20,084 nucleotides of DNA from a virus: positions 1-20,084 of the IMG/VR virus record IMGVR_UViG_3300006751_000197. One strand, given 5' to 3'. The notes beneath the pieces are model-generated. The model had not been told where the DNA came from. It saw nothing but the letters and a program-made list of their open reading frames with translations, and searched no databases. The number at the start of each line of letters is the position of its first letter. The first letter of the stretch is position 1. The position numbers and the translations under genes were made by a program. Shown here piece after piece: positions 1-11,027 of this stretch.

Positions 1-1
1 A

Positions 2-1363
2 AGTGAGGTAAGGAAGGAGCTTGCATCCAGGGCATTGGCATCCAGGTCATTGCTTGAGTTCACTAAGAGGAGCCATGGGAGCTATCAAGTGAGCTGGCAT
101 CACAGGATGATAGCGGAGAGGTTGGAAGCTGTGGAGAGGGGCGAGGTCGACAGGCTTATGATAAACATGCCCCCCAGACATGGCAAGTCCGAGCTTAGTT
201 CCATAAGGTTCCCTGTCTGGTTCTTGGGGAGGAACCCTGCTAAGAGGGTGATAGCGGTGTCTTATTCAAGGGAGCTTGCCACGGACTTTGGAAGGAAGAC
301 GAGGAACTTGGTGAAGTCGGAGCAGTTCACGAACGTGTTCGATGCGTCATTGTCCGAGGACAGTTACTCTGTGCAGAAGTGGGACCTTTCTGAGGGAGGC
401 GGATATGTAGGAGTAGGGATAGGGGGGACAATAGTTGGCAGGGGTGCGGACATCTTTTTGATAGATGACCCGATCAAGTCAGCGGACGATGCTGACTCTG
501 CCACTTACAGGGACGCAGTTTGGGATTGGTATCAGAACGTGGCATATACGAGATTGGAGAAGGGAGGGGCAATAGTGCTGACCATGACGAGGTGGCACAA
601 GGACGATCTTGCAGGAAGGTTGACGGACTTGGCGAAGAAGGACGGATGGGAGGTATTGAGCCTCCCTGCCACAGGGGATGCGAATGAGAAGGAGAGGGAG
701 GAAGGAGAGGCCTTGTGGCCAGAGAAGTATGACGATGCCTCTTTAAAGAGGATAAGGGAGAACATTGGCACGAGGGCATTCGGAGCGCAGTATTTGCAAC
801 GCCCTGTGATGGAGGAGTCCAGCATCTTCAACCGCAAATGGTTCAGGTTCTATGAGCCTGGGGGGCTTCCCCATGTGTACAGGTACATATGGAGTTGGGA
901 CACGGCATCGAAGGCGAAGGCACAGCATGACTTCTCGGTCGGCACGTTCTGGGCGGAGTGCGAGAATGGTTTTTATTTGGTGTACTTGTGGAGGGAGAAG
1001 TGCATATACACGGATTTGAAGAGGGCGATATTGAATATGCAGTCAGCATGGGAGGCGGACTGTGTTTTGATAGAGGACGCATCCAGCGGTATTCAGTTGT
1101 TGCAAGACCTTCAGGAGACCACTTCCTTGCCCATATTGCCAGAGAAAACAGAGGGCAGGAGCAAGGAGGCGAGGGCGGTGGCCATATCACATTTGTTTGA
1201 AAGTGGCAAAGTTTTCTTCCCAAGGAATGAAGATTTTGTTAATGTATTGGTGGACGAGCTGGTTTCTTTCCCAGCGTCAAAGAGAAAAGACCAAGTAGAC
1301 AGCGTTTCCCAAGCATTGCGTTTCATGAAAAGGCAAGAGGATGCTTGGGTGGAGTGGTTATGA
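2..1363 (+). CDS. terL: Terminase large subunit (5'-truncated by window edge)
   Basis: This is the motor ATPase and nuclease that pumps and cuts phage DNA at the portal. Counting residues from a TTG codon at 35, a Walker A-type loop PPRHGKS sits at 46-52 and a Walker B FLIDDP at 141-146. The RNase H-like nuclease half shows SWDTA near residue 285, then LIEDASSG, then DQVDSVSQAL near the C-terminus, which supply the expected acidic metal ligands. The frame is open to the left edge, and the residues before the TTG (RKELASRALASRSLLEF) look like normal family N-terminus. The real start is therefore probably outside the window, and the TTG is only a fallback. The stop overlaps the portal ATG as ATGA. 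Arginine codons are almost all AGG in the first 90 residues. The family call is secure. Confidence 0.95.
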   Translation, partial: SEVRKELASRALASRSLLEFTKRSHGSYQVSWHHRMIAERLEAVERGEVDRLMINMPPRHGKSELSSIRFPVWFLGRNPAKRVIAVSYSRELATDFGRKTRNLVKSEQFTNVFDASLSEDSYSVQKWDLSEGGGYVGVGIGGTIVGRGADIFLIDDPIKSADDADSATYRDAVWDWYQNVAYTRLEKGGAIVLTMTRWHKDDLAGRLTDLAKKDGWEVLSLPATGDANEKEREEGEALWPEKYDDASLKRIRENIGTRAFGAQYLQRPVMEESSIFNRKWFRFYEPGGLPHVYRYIWSWDTASKAKAQHDFSVGTFWAECENGFYLVYLWREKCIYTDLKRAILNMQSAWEADCVLIEDASSGIQLLQDLQETTSLPILPEKTEGRSKEARAVAISHLFESGKVFFPRNEDFVNVLVDELVSFPASKRKDQVDSVSQALRFMKRQEDAWVEWL

Positions 1364-2646
1364 GCAGTTTTTTACAAAAGATCAGGGACGGCCTGGGCAT
1401 AGTGCCTGATCTTAATCAGATGCAGGATGACCTCTATGAGAAGTCGAGCTTGTTCACTCCTGTGTCAAATACCTTGCTGAGTGGTTTCTTAGAGCAGGAA
1501 AGCACATATGACAAGCTTTCCAAGCAAGGGTTCCAGAAGAACCCTTACATATTCTCATGTATTGACATACTGGCGAATGCGGGGGCGAACCTGAAGCTTT
1601 CCTTGTTCAAGGGCAAGAGGGAGATAGTCAGGGAGCATAGGATACTCGACCTGTTGGACAATGTTTACTACGGGGACTCGAAGCTTTCTTATTATGATTT
1701 CATGTACTTTCTATGGGCTTACTTCTATTTGTCAGGGAATGCTTACCTTTGGGTGGACGTTTCTTCAGGGAAGCCTTCCCAAGTGGTATTGCTATCACCT
1801 TCTGAGATCAGGATAGAGGTGATGGCGAACGAGGTGAAGTATTATATAAACAATAAGCTTTTCAAAAGCAACGGTGCAAAGCTGGTCCATTTGAAGTTCT
1901 TCCATCCTTTCCAGAAGACAGAGGGGATGAGTCCTTTGGGGCCGTGCGCCATGTCGATAGACCAGAACAATGCGGGCAGGGTATGGAACACCAACCTCTT
2001 GAACAGGATGACCAAGACGGACGGCTATCTTGAGTCGAATGCGGGCAGGTTGTCCGAGAAGCAGAGATTGATATTGAAGAATGAGATGGAGGTCAAGACA
2101 GGGGGAGCGAACAACGTCATGAAGACGATGGTGCTGCCAGGTGGGATGAAGTTCCACCCTCTTACTTTGTCAGCGGTGGACATGGACTGGGAAAAAGTAA
2201 TGGGAATGAGCGGAAGGGAGATATCAATGACCCTCAAAGTCCCTGCGGAGCTTTTGGGGTTTGAGAACAGGACTTATCAGAATGTGAAAGAGGCGAAGGC
2301 AGGGCTTTATTCAGAGGCGGTCATCCCTCAGATGAACAGGATGCTGAGTTTTCTCAACAAGGAGTTGTTGACCTTGTTCGGGGAGGGCTTCCATTTAGAG
2401 ATAGACATGGACAAGGTGGACGTATTGAAGCGTGACAGAACGCTTGTGACGAAACAGGCGGTGAGCCTTTTCGACTCAGGGATCGTGACGAAGAACGAGG
2501 CGAGGAAGTTGTTGGGGTATGATGAAGTGTCAGATGGGGATTCTTTCAAAGAGGAGATGGAACCACCTGATTTTACGAATGTGGCAAGGGAAGCGGAATT
2601 AGAGAAAGAACCTAATAATAAGATGAGGGCGGTGAGCGATGATTGA
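1360..2646 (+). CDS. Portal protein, HK97 family
   Basis: The portal forms the dodecameric ring at the capsid vertex through which DNA enters and leaves, and it docks the terminase and the head-tail adaptor. The 428-residue length fits the HK97-type portal family. Typical stretches are KNPYIFSCIDILA near the N-terminus, then FYLSGNAYLWVD followed by LLSPSEIRI, and in the clip/stem half MTLKVPAELLGF with NRTYQNVKEAK. I chose ATG 1360 because it makes an ATGA overlap with the terminase stop and has GGTGGAG just upstream. A TTG at 1345 would add five residues and is less likely. The 3' end overlaps the protease start by 8 bases, so translation is probably coupled. The family is clear from the order of motifs and from its position between terminase and protease. 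Confidence 0.93.
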   Translation: MSSFLQKIRDGLGIVPDLNQMQDDLYEKSSLFTPVSNTLLSGFLEQESTYDKLSKQGFQKNPYIFSCIDILANAGANLKLSLFKGKREIVREHRILDLLDNVYYGDSKLSYYDFMYFLWAYFYLSGNAYLWVDVSSGKPSQVVLLSPSEIRIEVMANEVKYYINNKLFKSNGAKLVHLKFFHPFQKTEGMSPLGPCAMSIDQNNAGRVWNTNLLNRMTKTDGYLESNAGRLSEKQRLILKNEMEVKTGGANNVMKTMVLPGGMKFHPLTLSAVDMDWEKVMGMSGREISMTLKVPAELLGFENRTYQNVKEAKAGLYSEAVIPQMNRMLSFLNKELLTLFGEGFHLEIDMDKVDVLKRDRTLVTKQAVSLFDSGIVTKNEARKLLGYDEVSDGDSFKEEMEPPDFTNVAREAELEKEPNNKMRAVSDD

Positions 2647-3406
2647 GGTGAACATCATAGAGAAGTGCAGGGCTTTGGACATTGACCCTGACCTTCCAAA
2701 GAGCGAGCAGGTCTGGGGAGTGTACTCTGAGGATGGGAAGAGGCTTTTGGGAAGGTATCCGAGCTTAGAGAAAGCAAAAAAGCATTCTAATGACATAGAG
2801 GCAAATAAGGAGGAAGCTCAGATGAAAAAGAAATCTTTTCAATTTGAGGTGAAGAATTTTAATGTTGATGACAAAGAGATAAACGGGGTCCCTGTGAAGG
2901 TGTTCGAGGGATATGCTTCTGTTTTCTCTAGTGTGGACAGGGTGAGGGACGTGGTGATGCCAGGGGCCTTCACCAACGCATTGCAGAAGAATGGCAATCG
3001 TATGATACTTATGAGCAACCACAGGATGAACGTGGGGGTGGCAGATGTCAAAGAGGATTCCAAAGGTCTTTTTGTGAAAGGGTACATCAATCAAGAGACT
3101 CAAGCAGGAAGGGAAGGGTATTCTCTTTTAAAGATGGGTGCAGTGAACAGGATGAGCTTTGGTTACGAAGTGAAAGAGCAACAATGGGTGGAAAAGGACG
3201 GGAAGGAATACAACGAACTAAGGGAACTTGTTCCCCATGAGGTCAGTTTCGTTGATTTCCCTTGCAACTCCCAAGCTGAGATTACTGCTGTTAAATCAGT
3301 AAGTGATGAACCAACAACTGACCCTGAGATTTTGAAAAGTCTTAGGTCTATCAATCAGGGTCTAATTAAATCTACTAATTACTTAAAAGGAGAATCTAAT
3401 GAGTAA
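2639..3406 (+). CDS. Prohead maturation protease, HK97 family (U35/S78), with N-terminal extension
   Basis: This serine protease is packaged in the prohead, where it removes the capsid delta domain and then itself. The protease core spans about residues 66-220. It contains FEGYASVFSSVDRVRD, the likely catalytic His128 in MSNHRM, Ser173 in AVNRMSFGYE and Glu201 in HEVSFVDFP; these assignments follow the family pattern and are not proven here. Residues 1-61 form a separate small segment with WGVYSEDGKRLLGRYPS, a motif I know from short phage proteins or extensions near this gene. A perfect TAAGGAGG at 2806-2813 precedes an in-frame ATG at 2822, so a 194-residue protease without the extension is probably also made, or is the main product. 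The 3' end overlaps the capsid gene by 8 bases. Confidence 0.92.
   Translation: MIEVNIIEKCRALDIDPDLPKSEQVWGVYSEDGKRLLGRYPSLEKAKKHSNDIEANKEEAQMKKKSFQFEVKNFNVDDKEINGVPVKVFEGYASVFSSVDRVRDVVMPGAFTNALQKNGNRMILMSNHRMNVGVADVKEDSKGLFVKGYINQETQAGREGYSLLKMGAVNRMSFGYEVKEQQWVEKDGKEYNELRELVPHEVSFVDFPCNSQAEITAVKSVSDEPTTDPEILKSLRSINQGLIKSTNYLKGESNE
2806..2824 (+). promoter_or_regulatory. Internal ribosome binding site and start within the protease gene
   Basis: TAAGGAGG at 2806-2813 is a full-length match to the anti-Shine-Dalgarno partner. It is followed after 8 bases by ATG 2822, in the protease frame (Met62). The downstream protein begins MKKKSFQFEV and still holds the whole catalytic domain. This site looks stronger than the one for the upstream ATG at 2639, which lies inside the end of the portal gene. 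Confidence 0.7.
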
Positions 3407-4655
3407 TGAGCAAGAAGTGAAAGCCCTGATCGAAGAACAGGGGAAATTGGTCAAGTCTTTTCGTAAAGAGGTTGTGGACAAGATCAACACAAATGAAGAG
3501 AAGAGCAAGCAGTTCGTCAATGACAAAGACGCTAATATGCAAAAAAGGCTGGACGAGATCGAAGAGAAGATCAACAAGTCCAACCGCAAAGTCCTTGAAG
3601 GGGCCTCTGAAGATAATAACAAAGAGGAAAGCAAAGAGCTTAAGGGCCTTTATGACGCTTATGTGAAGTTTGGTGAAAAAAAGATCGATAGAAACGATCT
3701 TGAGAGAATGAAAGAGCTGGCCACTAATGAATACCAAAAGCGTTTGAACAAAGCGGCAGGTGATCCTGTAGTGTCTTACACGGATGCTTCGGGAGGTCAT
3801 TTGATCCCTGAGTTCATGTATCAAACCATTCTCAATAATTTTCAGGAAATTGATCCAATGAGGTCTGAGGCCGATGTAGTTTCAATTACTAGTAATAAGA
3901 TTGAGTTCCATACAGGATTTGACGCAAGTGCTGGATGGGAAGCTGAATCATTTACTTATAATTCAGGGACTGCCCCAGATGCCGCTGATCCTTCTTTTTC
4001 CCGTAAAGAACTTTCTTGCGATGTATTAGCAGGTCAGATCAGGCTGTCACTTGAAGCTTTAGAGGACATTCCAAATATTGGTTCTTATGTTACTGAGCGT
4101 TTAGGTGCTAAGATGGCATATACAGAAAGTTATGCTTTTATTAAAGGAAGTGGTAGTGGACAGCCTCAAGGCTTTGACACTAACACTAACCAAGTTCTTA
4201 TGGCAGCTCAGAGCAATAACGTGACCATGGGCAGTAATACTGTATTTGATTATGATGAGTTCTTTGAGCTTCAATCGGCATTCAAGACAGGATACCAGAG
4301 CAATCTAAAGTGGTACTTCAACCTAGACACCTTGGGCAAACTTAGAAAAGTTCAAGACGGTAACAGTAATTACCTATGGGCAGGTGCTTTGCAAGGAGCG
4401 GCTGAAGCTCACCCTGCTACTATTGGAGGAAGACCTTATACAATACTTCCTTCATTGAGCAACTTAGCGGCAGATTCATACTCGGTATATTGTGGAGACA
4501 TGAAGCAAGCTTATAAGATCATCCAGAGAGTGGGTATGAGCGTTAAGCGTTTGGATGAGTTCCAATATCCAGATGTCCTATTCATTGCTCGTATGCGTAT
4601 TGGCGGAGACTTAGTGTTACCTGAAGCATTAGGTTACATGAAAGGAGCCAGTTAA
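3399..4655 (+). CDS. Major capsid protein, HK97 fold, with N-terminal delta domain
   Basis: This protein builds the icosahedral shell. Of 418 residues, about 1-65 are charged and heptad-like, as in the scaffolding delta domain of HK97 gp5. The conserved shell domain starts after residue ~120, with SGGHLIPEFM and later FIKGSGSGQPQGF, a hallmark of the family. Maturation cleavage probably falls around residues 110-122 (KRLNKAAGDP), leaving roughly 300 residues; the exact site is inference. AAAGGAG at 3386-3392 precedes the ATG, which overlaps the protease stop. Arginine codons differ from those of neighbouring genes: half are CGT/CGC, as expected for a very highly expressed product. An intrinsic terminator follows at once. 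I could not judge whether the HK97 cross-linking lysine and asparagine are present. Confidence 0.94.
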   Translation: MSNEQEVKALIEEQGKLVKSFRKEVVDKINTNEEKSKQFVNDKDANMQKRLDEIEEKINKSNRKVLEGASEDNNKEESKELKGLYDAYVKFGEKKIDRNDLERMKELATNEYQKRLNKAAGDPVVSYTDASGGHLIPEFMYQTILNNFQEIDPMRSEADVVSITSNKIEFHTGFDASAGWEAESFTYNSGTAPDAADPSFSRKELSCDVLAGQIRLSLEALEDIPNIGSYVTERLGAKMAYTESYAFIKGSGSGQPQGFDTNTNQVLMAAQSNNVTMGSNTVFDYDEFFELQSAFKTGYQSNLKWYFNLDTLGKLRKVQDGNSNYLWAGALQGAAEAHPATIGGRPYTILPSLSNLAADSYSVYCGDMKQAYKIIQRVGMSVKRLDEFQYPDVLFIARMRIGGDLVLPEALGYMKGAS

Positions 4656-4671
4656 TAACTGATTAACCCTA

Positions 4672-4697
4672 GGGGATGCCCAGGCATCCCCTTTTTT
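4672..4697 (+). terminator. Rho-independent terminator after the capsid gene
   Basis: The perfect 8-base stem GGGGATGC/GCATCCCC has a 4-base loop CCAG (extendable by a C-G pair) and runs directly into TTTTTT at 4692-4697. It sits 16 bases after the capsid stop, and the ribosome binding site of the next gene begins at its end. All downstream head and tail genes are on the same strand with no obvious promoter in the gap. It probably acts as an attenuator that lets some transcripts pass while giving the capsid gene excess mRNA. Confidence 0.88.
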
Positions 4698-4708
4698 AGG
4701 AGGTCGAT

Positions 4709-4867
4709 ATGGCTGAAGAGAAAAAAACAAAGAAAGCGAAGAAAGCGAAGAAATTAGACCCCACAGCGGTGGAGAAATTCCTTAAAGAGCTGGAAGGCTC
4801 TGAGCTGAAAAAGCACAAATGGGCAGCGAACAATTTGAGGACAGCCCTTAAATTATTGAAGGGCTGA
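4709..4867 (+). CDS. Small lysine-rich protein, function unknown
   Basis: This gene encodes 52 residues. It starts at ATG 4709 behind a strong AGGAGGT (4698-4704) and stops one base before the next ATG. The N-terminal third is very basic (KKTKKAKKAKK), encoded partly by a tandem 9-base repeat AAAGCGAAG at 4733-4741 and 4742-4750. The rest is predicted to be helical (AVEKFLKELEG and NNLRTALKLLKG). The strong ribosome site, clean placement between the capsid and adaptor genes and tight spacing support a real gene. I do not recognise a family. A basic tail next to the capsid and portal could contact DNA or an acidic partner, but that is a guess. Confidence 0.75.
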   Translation: MAEEKKTKKAKKAKKLDPTAVEKFLKELEGSELKKHKWAANNLRTALKLLKG

Positions 4868-4868
4868 G

Positions 4869-5465
4869 ATGGCAGCGATCAAGCTGGTATCAGCGGCCGA
4901 CATAAAGACGTACCTTAATTTCTCAAGCACCAATCAAGACACTTTGATAGGTGAGATGATCGAACAGGTATCTGAGGACATTCAAAGTTATTGTGACAGG
5001 ACCTTTACTGAAGGCACAGATGTACTTGAGTATCCCATAGGAGGGGGAAAGTATTTGTCCCTCAAGAGGTTCCCGATAACCTCAGTCAGCCATGTCAGGT
5101 ACAACACCGACTTTGACTTCACGGACAGCGGTGACGATGTGGACTCTGACAGCTATACCATAAGCGGGGACTTTGATGACTTGGGGCTTATATTCTTCAA
5201 AGGGTACAAATGGCACAATGCAGAAGGCTCGCTGCAAGTCAAGTACACAGGGGGCTATGCGGACACCGCAGATATTCTTAATGTACCTGACGATCTTAAA
5301 AAAGCTTGCATCATGCAAGTGGCGTATTTGATGGACAGAAGGAAGACCTTGGGGGTAAGGACAGCATCTGGGCAAGAAGGAAGCGTGAATTTTCAAGGGG
5401 AGTATGATTTCCTTCCCCATGTAAAAGGGATCATAGATAAATACAGAAGGCTTACAATTGTTTAG
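4869..5465 (+). CDS. Head-tail adaptor (connector), HK97 gp6-like
   Basis: The adaptor ring binds beneath the portal after packaging and lengthens the DNA channel toward the tail. The 198 residues show the usual order for the gp6-like family. First comes an N-terminal helical pair (VSAADIKTYLNF, then DTLIGEMIEQVSEDIQSYCDRTF), next a beta section with LSLKRFPITSVSHVRY, and then VKYTGGY followed by VPDDLKKACIMQVAYLMDRR. The C-terminus ends in a helix with FLPHVKGIIDKYRR, as in relatives that end near a conserved tyrosine-arginine helix. ATG 4869 begins one base after the previous stop, so translation is probably coupled. The position after the capsid gene is the standard one. The family is recognised from the pattern rather than from an alignment. 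Confidence 0.85.
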   Translation: MAAIKLVSAADIKTYLNFSSTNQDTLIGEMIEQVSEDIQSYCDRTFTEGTDVLEYPIGGGKYLSLKRFPITSVSHVRYNTDFDFTDSGDDVDSDSYTISGDFDDLGLIFFKGYKWHNAEGSLQVKYTGGYADTADILNVPDDLKKACIMQVAYLMDRRKTLGVRTASGQEGSVNFQGEYDFLPHVKGIIDKYRRLTIV

Positions 5466-5487
5466 GCCCATCACCAAGGAGGAAGGA

Positions 5488-5700
5488 ATGGCAAAGAATA
5501 AGTGCAAAGTCGTCAAAGGACCTATAAGATACATCTCCAAGGGGGAGAAGGTCATAAAGCAAGAGGGAGAAGGGTGTGATATGGACAATCAGGTTGTATA
5601 TGAGTATTTCAAAAGGCTTGGTTATGTGGAAGACCTGACCCCTTCAAAAAAGAATAAAAAGAAAAAAGAGGAAGTGCCTGAAGATGCCTCTGAAGTTTGA
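5488..5700 (+). CDS. Small basic protein in the head-stopper position, function unknown
   Basis: This gene encodes 70 residues. I chose ATG 5488 because AAGGAGG at 5476-5482 precedes it; the frame is open further upstream from a TTG at 5458, but that has no ribosome site. Residues 10-45 look like a small beta-rich unit (KGPIRYISKGEKV, then a helix VVYEYFKRLGYVEDL), similar in outline to short phage head-region proteins with a Gly-Asp turn. The C-terminal tail is highly charged (KKNKKKKEE). The gene overlaps the next one by 17 bases. In HK97-like connectors this slot usually holds a head closure protein of about 100 residues, but this one is shorter and I see no clear match, so the role is left open. 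Confidence 0.7.
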   Translation: MAKNKCKVVKGPIRYISKGEKVIKQEGEGCDMDNQVVYEYFKRLGYVEDLTPSKKNKKKKEEVPEDASEV

Positions 5701-6202
5701 TTTTACAGTAAGTCAATCTGTACTTTTTGAAAAAGGAGCATTGCCTAGGTTCGTCAATGAGGCATACGTCCATACTTTGGACACTACCCGAAGGGTAGCT
5801 GTGCAAGAGGCAAAAAGGCTTGTGCCTGTAGGCAAATTCTCTAAGTCCCCTGGAGCTTTGAAAAAGTCTATCCATAGTAAGATGATACCTGGGAGAAGGT
5901 TTGAAGGAAGGTTTGAGATCATTGCGGACGCTCAGAACAAAGGATTTTATTATGGGCATTCCATAGAGAAAGGAAGGGGGTCGGTAGAGATAAAAAACTC
6001 CCCTTATTTGATATTCAGGGACGGTAGGACAGGGAAATGGTTGAGAAAGAAGTCAGTAGGGCCTGCTAAGAAAAGGTCTTTCTTAGAACCTGCGGTGAGC
6101 TTTGCCCTGAGCAGGGCGGACGGGTATTTTCAAAATGCCTTGACAAGGTCCATGGACAGGTTTGCAAGAGGCATTACTGTAAAAAGGATAGGAAGGGATT
6201 AA
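5684..6202 (+). CDS. Neck / head-tail joining protein, HK97 gp10-like
   Basis: This probable neck protein of 172 residues sits between the connector and tail genes. The N-terminal helix ends in AVQEAKRLVPVGKF and is followed by GALKKSIHSKM. This matches the gp10-like pattern of a helix, a Val-Pro-Val and a Gly-x-Leu-x-x-Ser-Ile turn. The C-terminal part has KKRSFLEPAVSFAL, equivalent to the family's Pro-Phe-Leu-x-Pro-Ala end. In relatives, members of this family help couple tail to head. The start at ATG 5684 overlaps the previous gene, with AGAGGAAG just upstream. A tail-completion role is a reasonable alternative, but the position before the tail terminator and tube protein favours a neck role. 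Confidence 0.75.
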   Translation: MPLKFDFTVSQSVLFEKGALPRFVNEAYVHTLDTTRRVAVQEAKRLVPVGKFSKSPGALKKSIHSKMIPGRRFEGRFEIIADAQNKGFYYGHSIEKGRGSVEIKNSPYLIFRDGRTGKWLRKKSVGPAKKRSFLEPAVSFALSRADGYFQNALTRSMDRFARGITVKRIGRD

Positions 6203-6205
6203 GGC

Positions 6206-6658
6206 TTGGCAAACTCTATAAGAGAGAACATATTGGCCAAAGTCAAGACCTCAATGGAGGCATTGACAGGAGTAGGCACTGTGCAGAGGATGAGAGTCAC
6301 TCCCTTAGACAATGAAGTGGCATTTCCTGCCGTTTTCATATTTGAGGACAGGGAAGAGATATCCACCCAGGCCCCTTCAGACATGGGCAAGGTGTACAAG
6401 AATCTTTTCGTCACCCTTCAATGTTGGGAGATAGATGATGGGAGTGGGACGAGCGTTCAATTGAACGAGCTTATGAAGAATGTTGAGATAAAGGCCATGA
6501 GCAATCCGAATTGGGATTCATTGGCCCTAGACACTATTCCTATTGAAACTAGGAATTTTATAGATTTAAGTAGCGTCAAAGGAGAGGGATACCTGGGCTT
6601 TGAATTTGACATAAAGATCAGATACAGGCATACTTTCTATGACCCAGAAACCGCCTAA
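6206..6658 (+). CDS. Probable tail terminator / tail completion protein (TTG start)
   Basis: This gene encodes 150 residues and uses TTG 6206 as its start, with GGAAGG at 6191-6196 nine bases upstream. The next in-frame ATG is at 6254 and would remove the conserved-looking first helix (SIRENILAKVKTSMEAL). The protein then alternates beta strands (FPAVFIFEDREEIS and YKNLFVTLQCWEI), a helix (SVQLNELMKNVEI) and final strands (YLGFEFDIKIRYRH). This is the alpha-beta layout of tail terminator proteins that cap the tail tube and join it to the neck. The position directly before the tube gene is right for that role. The family is inferred from layout and place, not from a diagnostic motif. Confidence 0.6.
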   Translation: MANSIRENILAKVKTSMEALTGVGTVQRMRVTPLDNEVAFPAVFIFEDREEISTQAPSDMGKVYKNLFVTLQCWEIDDGSGTSVQLNELMKNVEIKAMSNPNWDSLALDTIPIETRNFIDLSSVKGEGYLGFEFDIKIRYRHTFYDPETA

Positions 6659-6673
6659 CAAGGAGAACGAAAA

Positions 6674-7675
6674 ATGGCAGATATATTATTAACAAGGCAA
6701 TCAGTCCTTTTTGTAAAGACCGAGACTACATATGGGACGGACGTTATTGGAGGGTCAGTTACTGCGGGAGATGCAGTTCTTTCCACCATTCCTGATTTCA
6801 GCTTTGATGTAGAAACTTATGAGAGAAATTTAGCTAGGGAATCGCTTTCTCCTTTAGACCCAAGGGTGACTAATATAAATTGCAGTTTATCTTTCTCCTG
6901 TGAACTTAGAGGAAGTGGCACAGCTACCACGCCCCCAGAGATCAATGCTTTACTAAAAGCGTGTGGGTTTTCAGTAGCTACTGAATCGGCAGCAGTTTTT
7001 TATAACCCTGTTACAACCGCCAGTTCAAGTTGTACTATTTATTTTTACCAAGGCGACCCTGGGCAATTGAAAAAATTGACGGGTTGTGTGGGGAACGTAA
7101 GTTTCGCAGTAGAGCAAGGAGGCATAGGAGTAGCTAATTTTGAAATGCAAGGGAAATTTGACGGAACTGCCGCCTTTGTGAGCAATACTGCAATCCCTAC
7201 TGCCGATTATGACGAGGAGCTTCCTCCTATAGCTCAAAATATTAGTTTTGTGTATGGCAGTGATTCAACTTTTGAAATTTCTTCTGTAGAAGTGAATATG
7301 AACAATGAGATTCAAAACGTAAAAACCATGAACAGTTCTGCTAAAACAGCTACTAATTTCTTTTTGACAGGACGTTCTCCAGGGGGTTCTTTTAATCCTT
7401 TAATAGAAACTTCTGCAGTAGAGAATGTCATAACCAATTTGGAAGGCTCCACTGGAAAGAACCTTCAGTTTGTTTTAGGTTCTACAGGAGGGAATAAGAT
7501 CACTTTTTATTTAGGAGGTTCTCAATCTGGAGGAACTGTAACTGACAGAGATGCTGTTACACTTACTAATCTAGGCTTTGAAGATTCTGATGGATTGGCC
7601 AGGTATAATTGTGAGTACCAATTAGGGGCAGGGTTTGACACGGGGAATGATGAAATATTAATTAAATTTTGGTGA
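6674..7675 (+). CDS. Major tail protein (tail tube)
   Basis: This protein forms the stacked rings of the tail tube. It has 333 residues, is beta-rich and poor in lysine, as usual for tube proteins. Visible marks are the N-terminal LLTRQSVLFVKTETTYGTD, a PEINALLKACGF segment (the conserved Leu-Leu-x-x-Cys/Ser-Gly-Phe of one tube family) and VANFEMQGKFDG, a strand pair common in tube proteins. AAGGAGA at 6659-6665 serves the ATG. The order terminator, tube, chaperones, tape measure is canonical, which makes this assignment strong. At this length it may carry an extra surface domain in its C-terminal third (residues ~230-330), but I cannot recognise one. Confidence 0.85.
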   Translation: MADILLTRQSVLFVKTETTYGTDVIGGSVTAGDAVLSTIPDFSFDVETYERNLARESLSPLDPRVTNINCSLSFSCELRGSGTATTPPEINALLKACGFSVATESAAVFYNPVTTASSSCTIYFYQGDPGQLKKLTGCVGNVSFAVEQGGIGVANFEMQGKFDGTAAFVSNTAIPTADYDEELPPIAQNISFVYGSDSTFEISSVEVNMNNEIQNVKTMNSSAKTATNFFLTGRSPGGSFNPLIETSAVENVITNLEGSTGKNLQFVLGSTGGNKITFYLGGSQSGGTVTDRDAVTLTNLGFEDSDGLARYNCEYQLGAGFDTGNDEILIKFW

Positions 7676-7691
7676 TAAAAGGAGGAGAAGG

Positions 7692-8153
7692 GTGAGTATT
7701 GCGGAGTATAAAAAAAGAGCTAACAACACTAAGGTCATTGAACTGGAGTTCTTCAAGGTTAAGATAAGGAAACTGAAGCCTAAAGATTATATAGGAGTGT
7801 CTGGGCTTCCTTCTATATATTCATTGGAGGAGAAAGAGCAGAAAGACGATCCCCCCCAAGAGGATGCCTTACAGCTTTTTAACACCATGAAGAAGTTCAT
7901 ATGTGCATGTGTTGTCCCTGATAAGGACAATGACATGCCTGGGATAGTTGACAGGCCTGAAAGCGAATGCAAGGATTGGGAGATATCTTTTGAGGAAACC
8001 CTTTCGGATGAGGACGCATTTAAGCTTTTCAACACCATTCAAGAGTTCACAGTAGGAGGTGGCCAATCTGACATGGCCGTGTTTCGGGAAGAACAAGACG
8101 TTCCTGATAGCGGTGACGATGATGGCCAAGGAATACGGAAAGTTTCCGCATGA
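7692..8153 (+). CDS. Tail assembly chaperone, upstream frame (GTG start)
   Basis: This gene encodes 153 residues from GTG 7692 behind AAAAGGAGGAG. It lies in the fixed chaperone position between the tube and tape measure genes. The protein is mixed alpha-beta, starting IAEYKKRANNTKVIELEFFKVKIRKLKPKDYIGVSG. The last ~26 residues turn into a very acidic, low-complexity tail (SGDDDG) that resembles out-of-frame reading. In tailed phages this gene commonly shifts frame near its end to add the next frame as a C-terminal domain. Here a 95-base overlap with the next frame and a TTT-C slip site at 8082-8085 suggest a fused product of about 215 residues. The chaperone coats the tape measure during tail assembly and is not in the finished virion in known cases. 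Confidence 0.75.
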   Translation: MSIAEYKKRANNTKVIELEFFKVKIRKLKPKDYIGVSGLPSIYSLEEKEQKDDPPQEDALQLFNTMKKFICACVVPDKDNDMPGIVDRPESECKDWEISFEETLSDEDAFKLFNTIQEFTVGGGQSDMAVFREEQDVPDSGDDDGQGIRKVSA

Positions 8154-8340
8154 GGTGGTAGAACTTGATTTGGGGGATTGGTCATTCAATTTGTTTTGCA
8201 TGATCAAAAGCCAGGAAGAATCTAAGCCTCAAGAATACTCTAAAGAGGTTATGGACATCGTGCCTAAAATGAAAGACCCTGAACATTTGAAAAAGTTATC
8301 TGAATATTCTGATAAATTACCTAAAAGGATGGTGAGGTGA
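8059..8340 (+). CDS. Tail assembly chaperone, downstream frame (probably made by +1 frameshift)
   Basis: This frame lies +1 relative to the upstream chaperone and is open from just after a TAG at 8053. It encodes a helical C-terminal domain: TFLIAVTMMAKEYGKFPHEV, then LDLGDWSFNLFCMI, typical of the T domain of fused chaperones. It lacks a good start of its own. GTG 8059 overlaps the AGGAGG at 8054-8059, and ATG 8119 and 8122 have no ribosome site. A CTG at 8068 is well spaced from AGGAGG and is a weaker alternative. Its stop TGA overlaps the tape measure ATG by one base. I expect it mainly as the tail of a frameshift fusion whose own part begins at GGG 8086. Confidence 0.72.
   Translation: MANLTWPCFGKNKTFLIAVTMMAKEYGKFPHEVVELDLGDWSFNLFCMIKSQEESKPQEYSKEVMDIVPKMKDPEHLKKLSEYSDKLPKRMVR
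8082..8085 (+). other. Candidate +1 ribosomal frameshift site TTT-C
   Basis: In the upstream frame the codons read GTG TTT CGG GAA. A Phe tRNA on TTT can re-pair with TTC one base on, after which reading continues GGG AAG AAC in the downstream frame. The A-site codon CGG could be slow. This is the only clean +1 re-pairing that I find upstream of the conserved helix of the downstream frame. An AAA-G near 8144 is a later, weaker candidate. Confidence 0.5.
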
Positions 8341-11027
8341 TGGCAGCTTTAAGTTTAGCTTTAAAGGCTTTGGGGGGAGCTACTTTTGCAAAGGACATTG
8401 CTAAAGTTGCAACTAAGTTATTTGTTTTAAACAAAAGTTTCCAGGAATTATCAGGTTCCATTAAAGATGCTAATAGCAGGTTCCGTTCTTTTGAAAAGGC
8501 CATGGCGGACGTAGGGACTCTTTTAGTGAATGACCAGGCCAATGTTGCAAAATTAACAAAAGAAGTGGACGCACTTGTAGCTTCTATGGGGCTTAATGCC
8601 CAGGATACGGTCAAGGGGCTTTATCAGATAATATCTTCAGGCGTAAGGGACCCTGCTGAAGCCATGGAATTGTTGACCGAATCCTCTAAATTGGCAATAG
8701 CAGGAGTAACTGACCTGTCCACTGCTGCCAATGGGTCAACGGCCATCATGAATGCCTATAAATTACAACTGCAAGACATCACCGATATTGGGGATGCAAT
8801 GCAGCAGACCGTAGTTCTTGGAAGATTGAGGATGGAAAACCTTTCCTCAGCTATGAGCATAGCCATGCCGATAGCTGCGAACTTGGGCATAGGGTACAAG
8901 GACATATTGGCAGGAACTGCCACTATGACCAAGCAAGCGTTCACTGCATCTGAGTCAATGACAGGATTAAGATCGGCAATCCGAAGCGTATTGCAACCTA
9001 CTAAAGTCATGAAACAATTATTTGACAAATTAGGGGTTTCTACAGGTCAAGAACTTATTTCAAATGCAGGAAGCCTTCAGAATGCCTTTGTGGAGATACG
9101 AGAAGCGGCAGGGGGGAACATACTGGTATTGGAAGAGGCCATCCGAAGGGTGGAGGGATTCAATGCCTTGCTTGCCTTAACAGGCAAGAACGCTAAAACT
9201 GCGGCCTCTGATCTCCTGGAGATCAAATCAGCTACAGGAGCGGTAAATCAAGCTGTTGAGGTGGTCAACAGGACCCAACAAAGATGGGGGGACCGATCCC
9301 AAGCGGTATTTGATTCCTTGAAAAGAGATGTGGGGTCATTTACCTCTCTATTTGTCAAGTTTAAAGACATTGTAGTGGTAAAAACTGCCGAAGCGTTAGG
9401 GGTAGTGGAAAGTTTAAGGGAAAAAACGGCAAGGGCAAATAAAGATTCCATAGAGCAAATGGTCAATGAATCAAGGTCCACCAAAAAACTGACCAAAGAG
9501 AAAAGACTACTTGAAGGGGCTATAGAATCCGTTCTAGAACTGCAAAAAAGGGGTCAAAGACGTTATACTTCTTCCCAAGCAAGTATGAATAGGGAAATAA
9601 CTCAAGTTTGGCTTCCCCATTATAGACAGGGACTAAAGTATATAAACGAAGAACTGGAAAAAAGAATTGAGATGGAGAAAAAACTTGAACTGGCCTCAAA
9701 AAAAGCGATGGCCGCCGCAAGACGTGCCAGAGAAGAAGAGCTAAAAAGGGTTACAGGTATTTTAGAGAAGGAAAAAGCTTCCTTAGACAAAGCTGGCAAT
9801 AAAAAGGACCTCTCTGCCAACAAAAAGACAATGAAACAAGAACTTGCCTTGGCCGAATTAAGGCATGAATTAGGATTAATATCCGCTAGTCAACTTGAAT
9901 CTGCCAAACTTAGTATAGAAAATGATTTTTTAAGCCAAAAGGAAGGGATTGTTGTCGCTTATCTTGAGAATAAGCTACGACTTATAAAAGAGAGTACCTT
10001 GAGATCAGAGAAATGGAAGATAAAGAACGCCAAGGAAGCCAGCTCAAGGATACTTAGCATAGAAAAGGCTACTGATCTCAAGATATTTGAAAACAAAAAG
10101 AAAATGATAGCCCTGGAAAAGAAGGAAAAGAAGGGGAAAGATACAGACTCTTTTTTGTTTGAAGAGGATTTTAAACGCAGATGGTCGATGGTGAATCAGC
10201 GAATTGCTACAGAAAGGATAAGGCTTCAGACTAAGATAAAACAAGCTCAACTTAAAGGGAACGTAGAACTGGAACAATCTTTGAAGGGAATATCAGTTAG
10301 GATGTTCAATCTAAGACAAAAATTTATAGATGGCGAAATAAAAACCATTGACGATTTTAAGAGGGCAATCCTTCAACTTAAAGAGGATGTGAAGATAGCT
10401 CAAACGGAATTTAAGCAAGGGGTAGTTGAAACCGTAGACTCGTTGAAGATTTTTAAAGAACATGTCTCAGAGATAAAGAAGAACTTAGACTTTATGGCAG
10501 ATGGAATGGACAATCTCCAAGCAGGGATGGAAAATCTAAGGAGAGGTTCTGGGGCATGGTTGGACAAGGTGAAAACAGTTTTAGGGATATTCAATAGCAT
10601 AGCGTCCGCAGCTGACAGGATAGCTTCCGCCCAACAAAAACAAGGACTTGCCAAAGGGATGGGCATGTTGGGAGGTTTTACAGGAGGATTGGGCGGGGTA
10701 GTAGGTGGCATAATGTCCCTTTTCCATGATGGAGGGGCCATCCAAAGGCTTCATAAAGGAGGTGTCCCTAACATGCTGTCCTCTGATGAAGTTCCTATCA
10801 TCGCCCAAGCAGGGGAGTTCATGTTAAGTAAGAACGCTGTTCAGAACATGGGTGGCCAGTCTGCTGTGAAGGACATGCACGACAATGCCGTAGCAGGAGC
10901 AGGAGCAGGGACAAATGTTAAATTGAACCTTAGTTTTAACCCCGATAATTTCAGGTCTTTTTTAACAGGTACTGAAGAAGGGAAGGACATTGTTAAACAA
11001 GCGGTCATTGAGGCATTTCCTACATGA
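8340..11027 (+). CDS. Tail tape measure protein
   Basis: This 895-residue protein sets tail length and occupies the tube lumen until ejection. Residues ~45-330 match the TP901-type tape measure core, with DPAEAMELLTESSKLAIAG, then ANLGIGYKDILAGTATMTKQ and RRVEGFNALLALTG. Residues ~370-760 are highly charged and helical, with long coiled-coil-like runs. Residues ~775-840 hold a glycine-rich hydrophobic stretch, then LFHDGGAIQRLHKGG and VPIIAQAGEFMLSKNAV, a C-terminal pattern seen in many tape measures. I chose ATG 8340 (TGATG overlap with the chaperone stop); a GTG at 8337 adds one residue. At about 0.15 nm per residue, the usual ruler relation gives a tail near 130 nm. No peptidase or lysozyme domain is visible. 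Confidence 0.93.
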   Translation: MAALSLALKALGGATFAKDIAKVATKLFVLNKSFQELSGSIKDANSRFRSFEKAMADVGTLLVNDQANVAKLTKEVDALVASMGLNAQDTVKGLYQIISSGVRDPAEAMELLTESSKLAIAGVTDLSTAANGSTAIMNAYKLQLQDITDIGDAMQQTVVLGRLRMENLSSAMSIAMPIAANLGIGYKDILAGTATMTKQAFTASESMTGLRSAIRSVLQPTKVMKQLFDKLGVSTGQELISNAGSLQNAFVEIREAAGGNILVLEEAIRRVEGFNALLALTGKNAKTAASDLLEIKSATGAVNQAVEVVNRTQQRWGDRSQAVFDSLKRDVGSFTSLFVKFKDIVVVKTAEALGVVESLREKTARANKDSIEQMVNESRSTKKLTKEKRLLEGAIESVLELQKRGQRRYTSSQASMNREITQVWLPHYRQGLKYINEELEKRIEMEKKLELASKKAMAAARRAREEELKRVTGILEKEKASLDKAGNKKDLSANKKTMKQELALAELRHELGLISASQLESAKLSIENDFLSQKEGIVVAYLENKLRLIKESTLRSEKWKIKNAKEASSRILSIEKATDLKIFENKKKMIALEKKEKKGKDTDSFLFEEDFKRRWSMVNQRIATERIRLQTKIKQAQLKGNVELEQSLKGISVRMFNLRQKFIDGEIKTIDDFKRAILQLKEDVKIAQTEFKQGVVETVDSLKIFKEHVSEIKKNLDFMADGMDNLQAGMENLRRGSGAWLDKVKTVLGIFNSIASAADRIASAQQKQGLAKGMGMLGGFTGGLGGVVGGIMSLFHDGGAIQRLHKGGVPNMLSSDEVPIIAQAGEFMLSKNAVQNMGGQSAVKDMHDNAVAGAGAGTNVKLNLSFNPDNFRSFLTGTEEGKDIVKQAVIEAFPT

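Follow-up and report, generated by a model that had tools for sequence, protein, structure and literature searches.

The window analyzed here is the whole stretch of 20,084 nucleotides from a 20-kb virus record of metagenomic origin. Two overlapping reading frames, predicted to encode a pair of tail assembly chaperones, are located between the genes for the tail tube and the tape measure protein, which is the usual place of such chaperones. The same gene order was found in L011, L020, and L023, which represent the homologous lineages compared below. The region comprises the following genes and features.

6674 to 7675, plus strand: tail tube protein gene (PF18906, E 4.8e-19), context
7692 to 8153, plus strand: 0-frame ORF of a predicted G-like tail assembly chaperone, 153 amino acids, GTG start at 7692, TGA at 8151 to 8153
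8056 to 8340, plus strand: open stretch in the +1 frame, opening after the TAG at 8053 to 8055; the T-like domain would be read from 8083 after the slip
8082 to 8087, plus strand: putative slip site TTT CGG, with a Phe codon in the P site that can re-pair from TTT to TTC and the rare CGG in the A site
8151 to 8153, plus strand: 0-frame stop codon TGA, lying inside the codons for a conserved His-Glu of the +1 frame
8337 to 11027, plus strand: tape measure protein gene (PF10145, E 1.6e-24, and PHROG tape measure families), context

The 0-frame ORF has a strong ribosome binding site of its own (-11.8 kcal/mol with the anti-Shine-Dalgarno sequence). The frames were recomputed, which bore out the overlap described in an earlier note on this DNA: 95 sense bases (8056 to 8150) are common to both frames, and the downstream frame lies at +1 (or -2). 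In a G/GT pair, ribosomes enter the second ORF by frameshifting from the first, with which it shares bases in a different frame; here the overlap is present and the comparative evidence presented below points to the shift. In Pfam and among the named PHROG families no match was obtained for the chaperone pair, and a weak match of L020 to phrog_6280 (E 0.0057) leads to a family without assigned function. The AlphaFold2 models, with a mean pLDDT of 41 and 36, were too poor for a fold comparison. Chaperones of the G/GT kind share little sequence (PMC5009743), and a family match was therefore not treated as a defining feature; we infer the chaperone function of the gene pair.

At TTT-C (8082 to 8085) the 0 frame reads TTT followed by CGG, and the +1 frame reads TTC followed by GGG. 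The clean re-pairing of the Phe codon that had been noticed at this position was confirmed, and it is equally possible in the three other lineages. Among the sense codons of the phage, CGG is the rarest and occurs elsewhere in the window only once in 6,440 codons. The A-site codon of L023 is CCT, the third rarest (1 of 80 Pro codons), that of L011 is TCG, the eleventh rarest, while L020 carries the ordinary CAA (rank 30 of 61), which is not a slow codon. The rarity of the A-site codon fits a predicted pause of the ribosome at this site. Schwartz and Curran (1997) reportedly measured the dicodon UUU-CGG itself in E. coli. In bacteria, UUU_Ynn is a published site prone to +1 shifting (PMC5009743).

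The codon usage of the window is also peculiar in itself: arginine is mostly encoded by AGG (141 of 244 codons) and CGG is nearly absent at a coding GC content of 44%. This AGG-rich and CGG-poor bias is unusual and may point to the host.

The comparison set consists of four lineages, namely the window, L003/L011, L020/L021, and L023/L024, and the case for a frameshift rests on these four. Two of the further lineages share 44-46% identity with the window over the first frame and 38-44% over the second, and the GC-rich L023/L024 is more remote, with 30% identity in the second frame. The second frame lies at +1 in each of these lineages. Sequence searches of phage records and bacterial genomes returned no relatives of the chaperone. 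The aligned junctions read as follows.

Window: GCC GTG TTT CGG GAA
L011: GCC ACG TTT TCG CAA
L020: GAA GTG TTT CAA GAA
L023: GTG GCC TTT CCT GCG

TTT followed by a pyrimidine is found at the same aligned place in all four lineages. As the Phe codon is always TTT and the next base always a pyrimidine, a forward move by one base lets tRNA-Phe pair again, with either TTC or TTT. The earlier note had named homologues that lost the slip site and gained a normal start for the second frame as evidence that would refute the shift. The comparison favours the frameshift instead, since TTT-Y is kept in the four lineages, and no well-placed conserved start lies upstream of the slip codon.

The metagenomic origin of the record gives some reason to consider the break between the frames as a sequencing or assembly error, or as the trace of a decayed gene. 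Yet two contigs with 99% identity to the window carry identical junction bases, which does no more than exclude an error in the sequence, and the +1 arrangement recurs in the three diverged lineages. An error or decay is thus extremely improbable.

In the +1 frame, conservation sets in at the slip Phe (F-GKN, F-RKN, and F-KKN), ahead of the first ATG that is shared. The alignment of three lineages has no gaps over the 69 bases that run from TTT to the stop codon of the 0 frame. For a null distribution, the 0 frame was resampled 5,000 times with synonymous codons, and the three diverged homologues were scored against it. The +1-frame conservation score was 138, compared to a null mean of -1.5 (sd 17.3), and was matched in none of the 5,000 resamplings. 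The segment upstream of the shared ATG alone scored 54 compared to 5.0, again unmatched (0 of 5,000), and in the five codons preceding TTT the resampling revealed no conservation of the +1 frame. Since resampling never reaches these scores, the +1 frame is under coding constraint from TTT onward and not solely from the ATG at 8122.

This bears directly on the possibility that the downstream frame is a separate gene with an internal start (MAKEYGKFPHE...) and that the overlap serves translational coupling only. The candidate start is the following feature.

8119 to 8124, plus strand: ATG ATG in the +1 frame, the second of which (8122) has an aligned counterpart ATG in L011 and L020

The earlier note had denied these codons a ribosome binding site, which was overstated: GCGGTGACG upstream of ATG 8122 pairs with the anti-Shine-Dalgarno sequence at -7.4 kcal/mol, a weak site compared to the -11.8 kcal/mol of the gene's own start. 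Its placement of GTG 8059 on its own AGGAGG was correct, as the codon overlaps 8054 to 8059. Together with the aligned ATG, the weak site in the window speaks for an internal start. The corresponding ATG codons of the homologues score poorly, however (-2.1 in L011, -4.9 in L020, and -2.8 kcal/mol in L023), and the +1 frame is conserved over 13 codons upstream of the ATG, beyond what the 0 frame explains. In L011, the +1 frame is closed by a TAG that ends 5 bases before TTT, and its next start codon comes no earlier than 19 bases past TTT. A separate gene with its own start is therefore very unlikely.

The same frame would also be entered by a slip of -2, as known for phage Mu (PMC5009743), which would result in one residue more. 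In the overlap, no P-site codon of the window or of L011 allows full re-pairing two bases back, whereas TTT-Y re-pairs forward in 4 of 4 lineages, and TTT is the only site of full +1 re-pairing common to all of them. This makes a backward slip even less likely than an internal start. A programmed +1 frameshift at TTT 8082, producing a G-T fusion beside the G protein, is very likely in view of these sequence comparisons, and the shift joining the two chaperone frames that had been predicted in the earlier note is supported by the conserved TTT-Y and by the start of conservation at the slip codon.

The mechanism would proceed as follows. While TTT 8082 occupies the P site and the very rare CGG awaits decoding in the A site, tRNA-Phe would move one base forward from UUU to UUC in a minority of ribosomes. 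The slipped ribosomes would then read GGG and stay in the +1 frame to 8340. The predicted products are a G-T fusion of 215 amino acids and the G protein of 153 amino acids. By comparison with gpG/gpGT of lambda, their ratio would help the tail to assemble on the tape measure protein. The slipping itself and its rate we infer from the nucleotide sequence.

Two RNA elements upstream of the slip codon were analyzed as candidate stimulators.

8054 to 8059, plus strand: AGGAGG, similar to a Shine-Dalgarno sequence and most likely a side effect of encoding a Gly-rich stretch
8061 to 8078, plus strand: possible stimulator, a predicted hairpin (GGCCA/UGGCC) with its 3′ end directly before the E-site codon GTG (8079 to 8081)

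A Shine-Dalgarno-like stimulator is no general requirement of +1 sites. The AGGAGG motif is equalled at 0.4-2.6% of gene positions, but given the encoded amino acids it is to be expected (P 0.2-0.6). It shows no excess over coding and lies about 15-25 bases from the slip codon, and was rejected as evidence.

A predicted stem of at least 5 pairs, located 1-3 bases before TTT, was found in 4 of 4 lineages with folding windows of 45 and 60 bases; with a window of 30 bases it was absent in L020. About 20-25% of random gene positions per lineage have such a stem, and fewer have one with the same run and energy. Compared to synonymous resampling, the combined P was 0.001-0.009 for windows of 24-45 bases, which were picked after looking, and the signal is driven by L011 and L023. 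As the windows were chosen post hoc, the lineages are only four and their stems differ, the upstream hairpin is regarded as a lead only; on this modest evidence from folding predictions, it may be a stimulator. Downstream of the slip site, no predicted RNA structure stood out. Upstream hairpins lying against the E site were shown to stimulate +1 shifting of reporter constructs in a 70S translation system (PMC6321510). A tentative and rather doubtful extension is that the chaperone shift of these phages is driven by a three-part +1 cassette, consisting of the P-site UUU_Y, a usually rare A-site codon, and an RNA stem which forms again directly behind the ribosome, against the codon in the E site, and promotes slipping forward. 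If true, the cassette would show the effect of upstream hairpins (PMC6321510) exploited in nature.

Several mosaic breaks were noted in the window. L013 (L002 contig) matches the window with 98.5% over positions 1 to 8342, where the match ends. Its chaperone pair is near-identical to that of the window, but its tape measure protein (L013 from 9584) begins differently (MSKSQTLEMRIKAVDATRKAF) and is closer to that of L011. The break coincides with the start of the tape measure gene (window positions 8337 to 8342), although binding of the tail assembly chaperone to the tape measure protein is presumed. The match to the window ends at about 5495 in L011 and L012 and at about 5327 in L009 and L020, so that head genes with 95-98% identity are combined with tail genes that belong to different lineages.

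A very remote relative of the second domain was found in L025, where the domain lies at -1 behind the slippery heptamer A_AAA_AAC (L025 positions 6001 to 6007). With the domain at -1 in L025 and at +1 in the window, different phages apparently use shifts of opposite direction to attach the same domain, and opposite shift directions have been described for the chaperone gene pair generally (PMC5009743). The +1 shift predicted here and the classical -1 site in L025 suggest that the fusion is maintained by selection even as the direction of the shift and its signal change. The locus appears to be a new example of a known phenomenon, chaperone frameshifting, which is very probably used by this phage, and its slip site is compact and directly testable in a laboratory strain.

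The frameshift of lambda gpG/gpGT and its relatives was described by Xu, Hendrix and Duda (2004), as reviewed in PMC5009743. As in lambda, the overlapping frames of the window are located between the tail tube and tape measure genes, and a late shift would yield a fusion of two domains. In contrast, the shift predicted for the window is +1 at TTT-C and that of lambda is -1, and the pair of the window has no detectable similarity to a named family.

In SPP1 and Listeria phage, +1 slips occur at CCC (PMC6316719, PMC5009743), likewise in a phage tail gene. Unlike in the window, they affect the tail tube gene and use a proline codon, often preceding a stop. The chaperone shift of SPP1 itself is a putative -1 shift at UUUUUUC (PMC6316719).

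With regard to the slip site, the closest counterparts are the influenza PA-X site UCC_UUU_CGU (PMC3498833), the amalgavirus site UUU_CGN (PMC5052127), and the bacterial sites UUU_Ynn and YopN-TyeA (PMC5009743). PA-X, amalgavirus, and bacterial UUU_C sites resemble the window in a P-site UUU that re-pairs to UUC while the A site holds CGN or another codon that is slow. The E-site codon is GTG in the window and UCC in PA-X. Host and gene are unrelated to those of the window, and the resemblance is a convergence.

In the chaperone genes themselves, a +1 frameshift is known from the archaeal virus HSTV-2 (PMC5009743), and forward shifts have been annotated in SEA-PHAGES genomes, for which the program PRFect weighs a rare 0-frame A-site codon (PMC10885494). 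These cases share with the window a chaperone fusion via a forward slip, a likeness in the direction of the shift, slip sites aside. What distinguishes the present locus from them is the conservation of TTT-Y across four lineages, which provides a comparative case for +1 chaperone frameshifting at UUU_Y, with UUU_CGG as the form predicted for the window.
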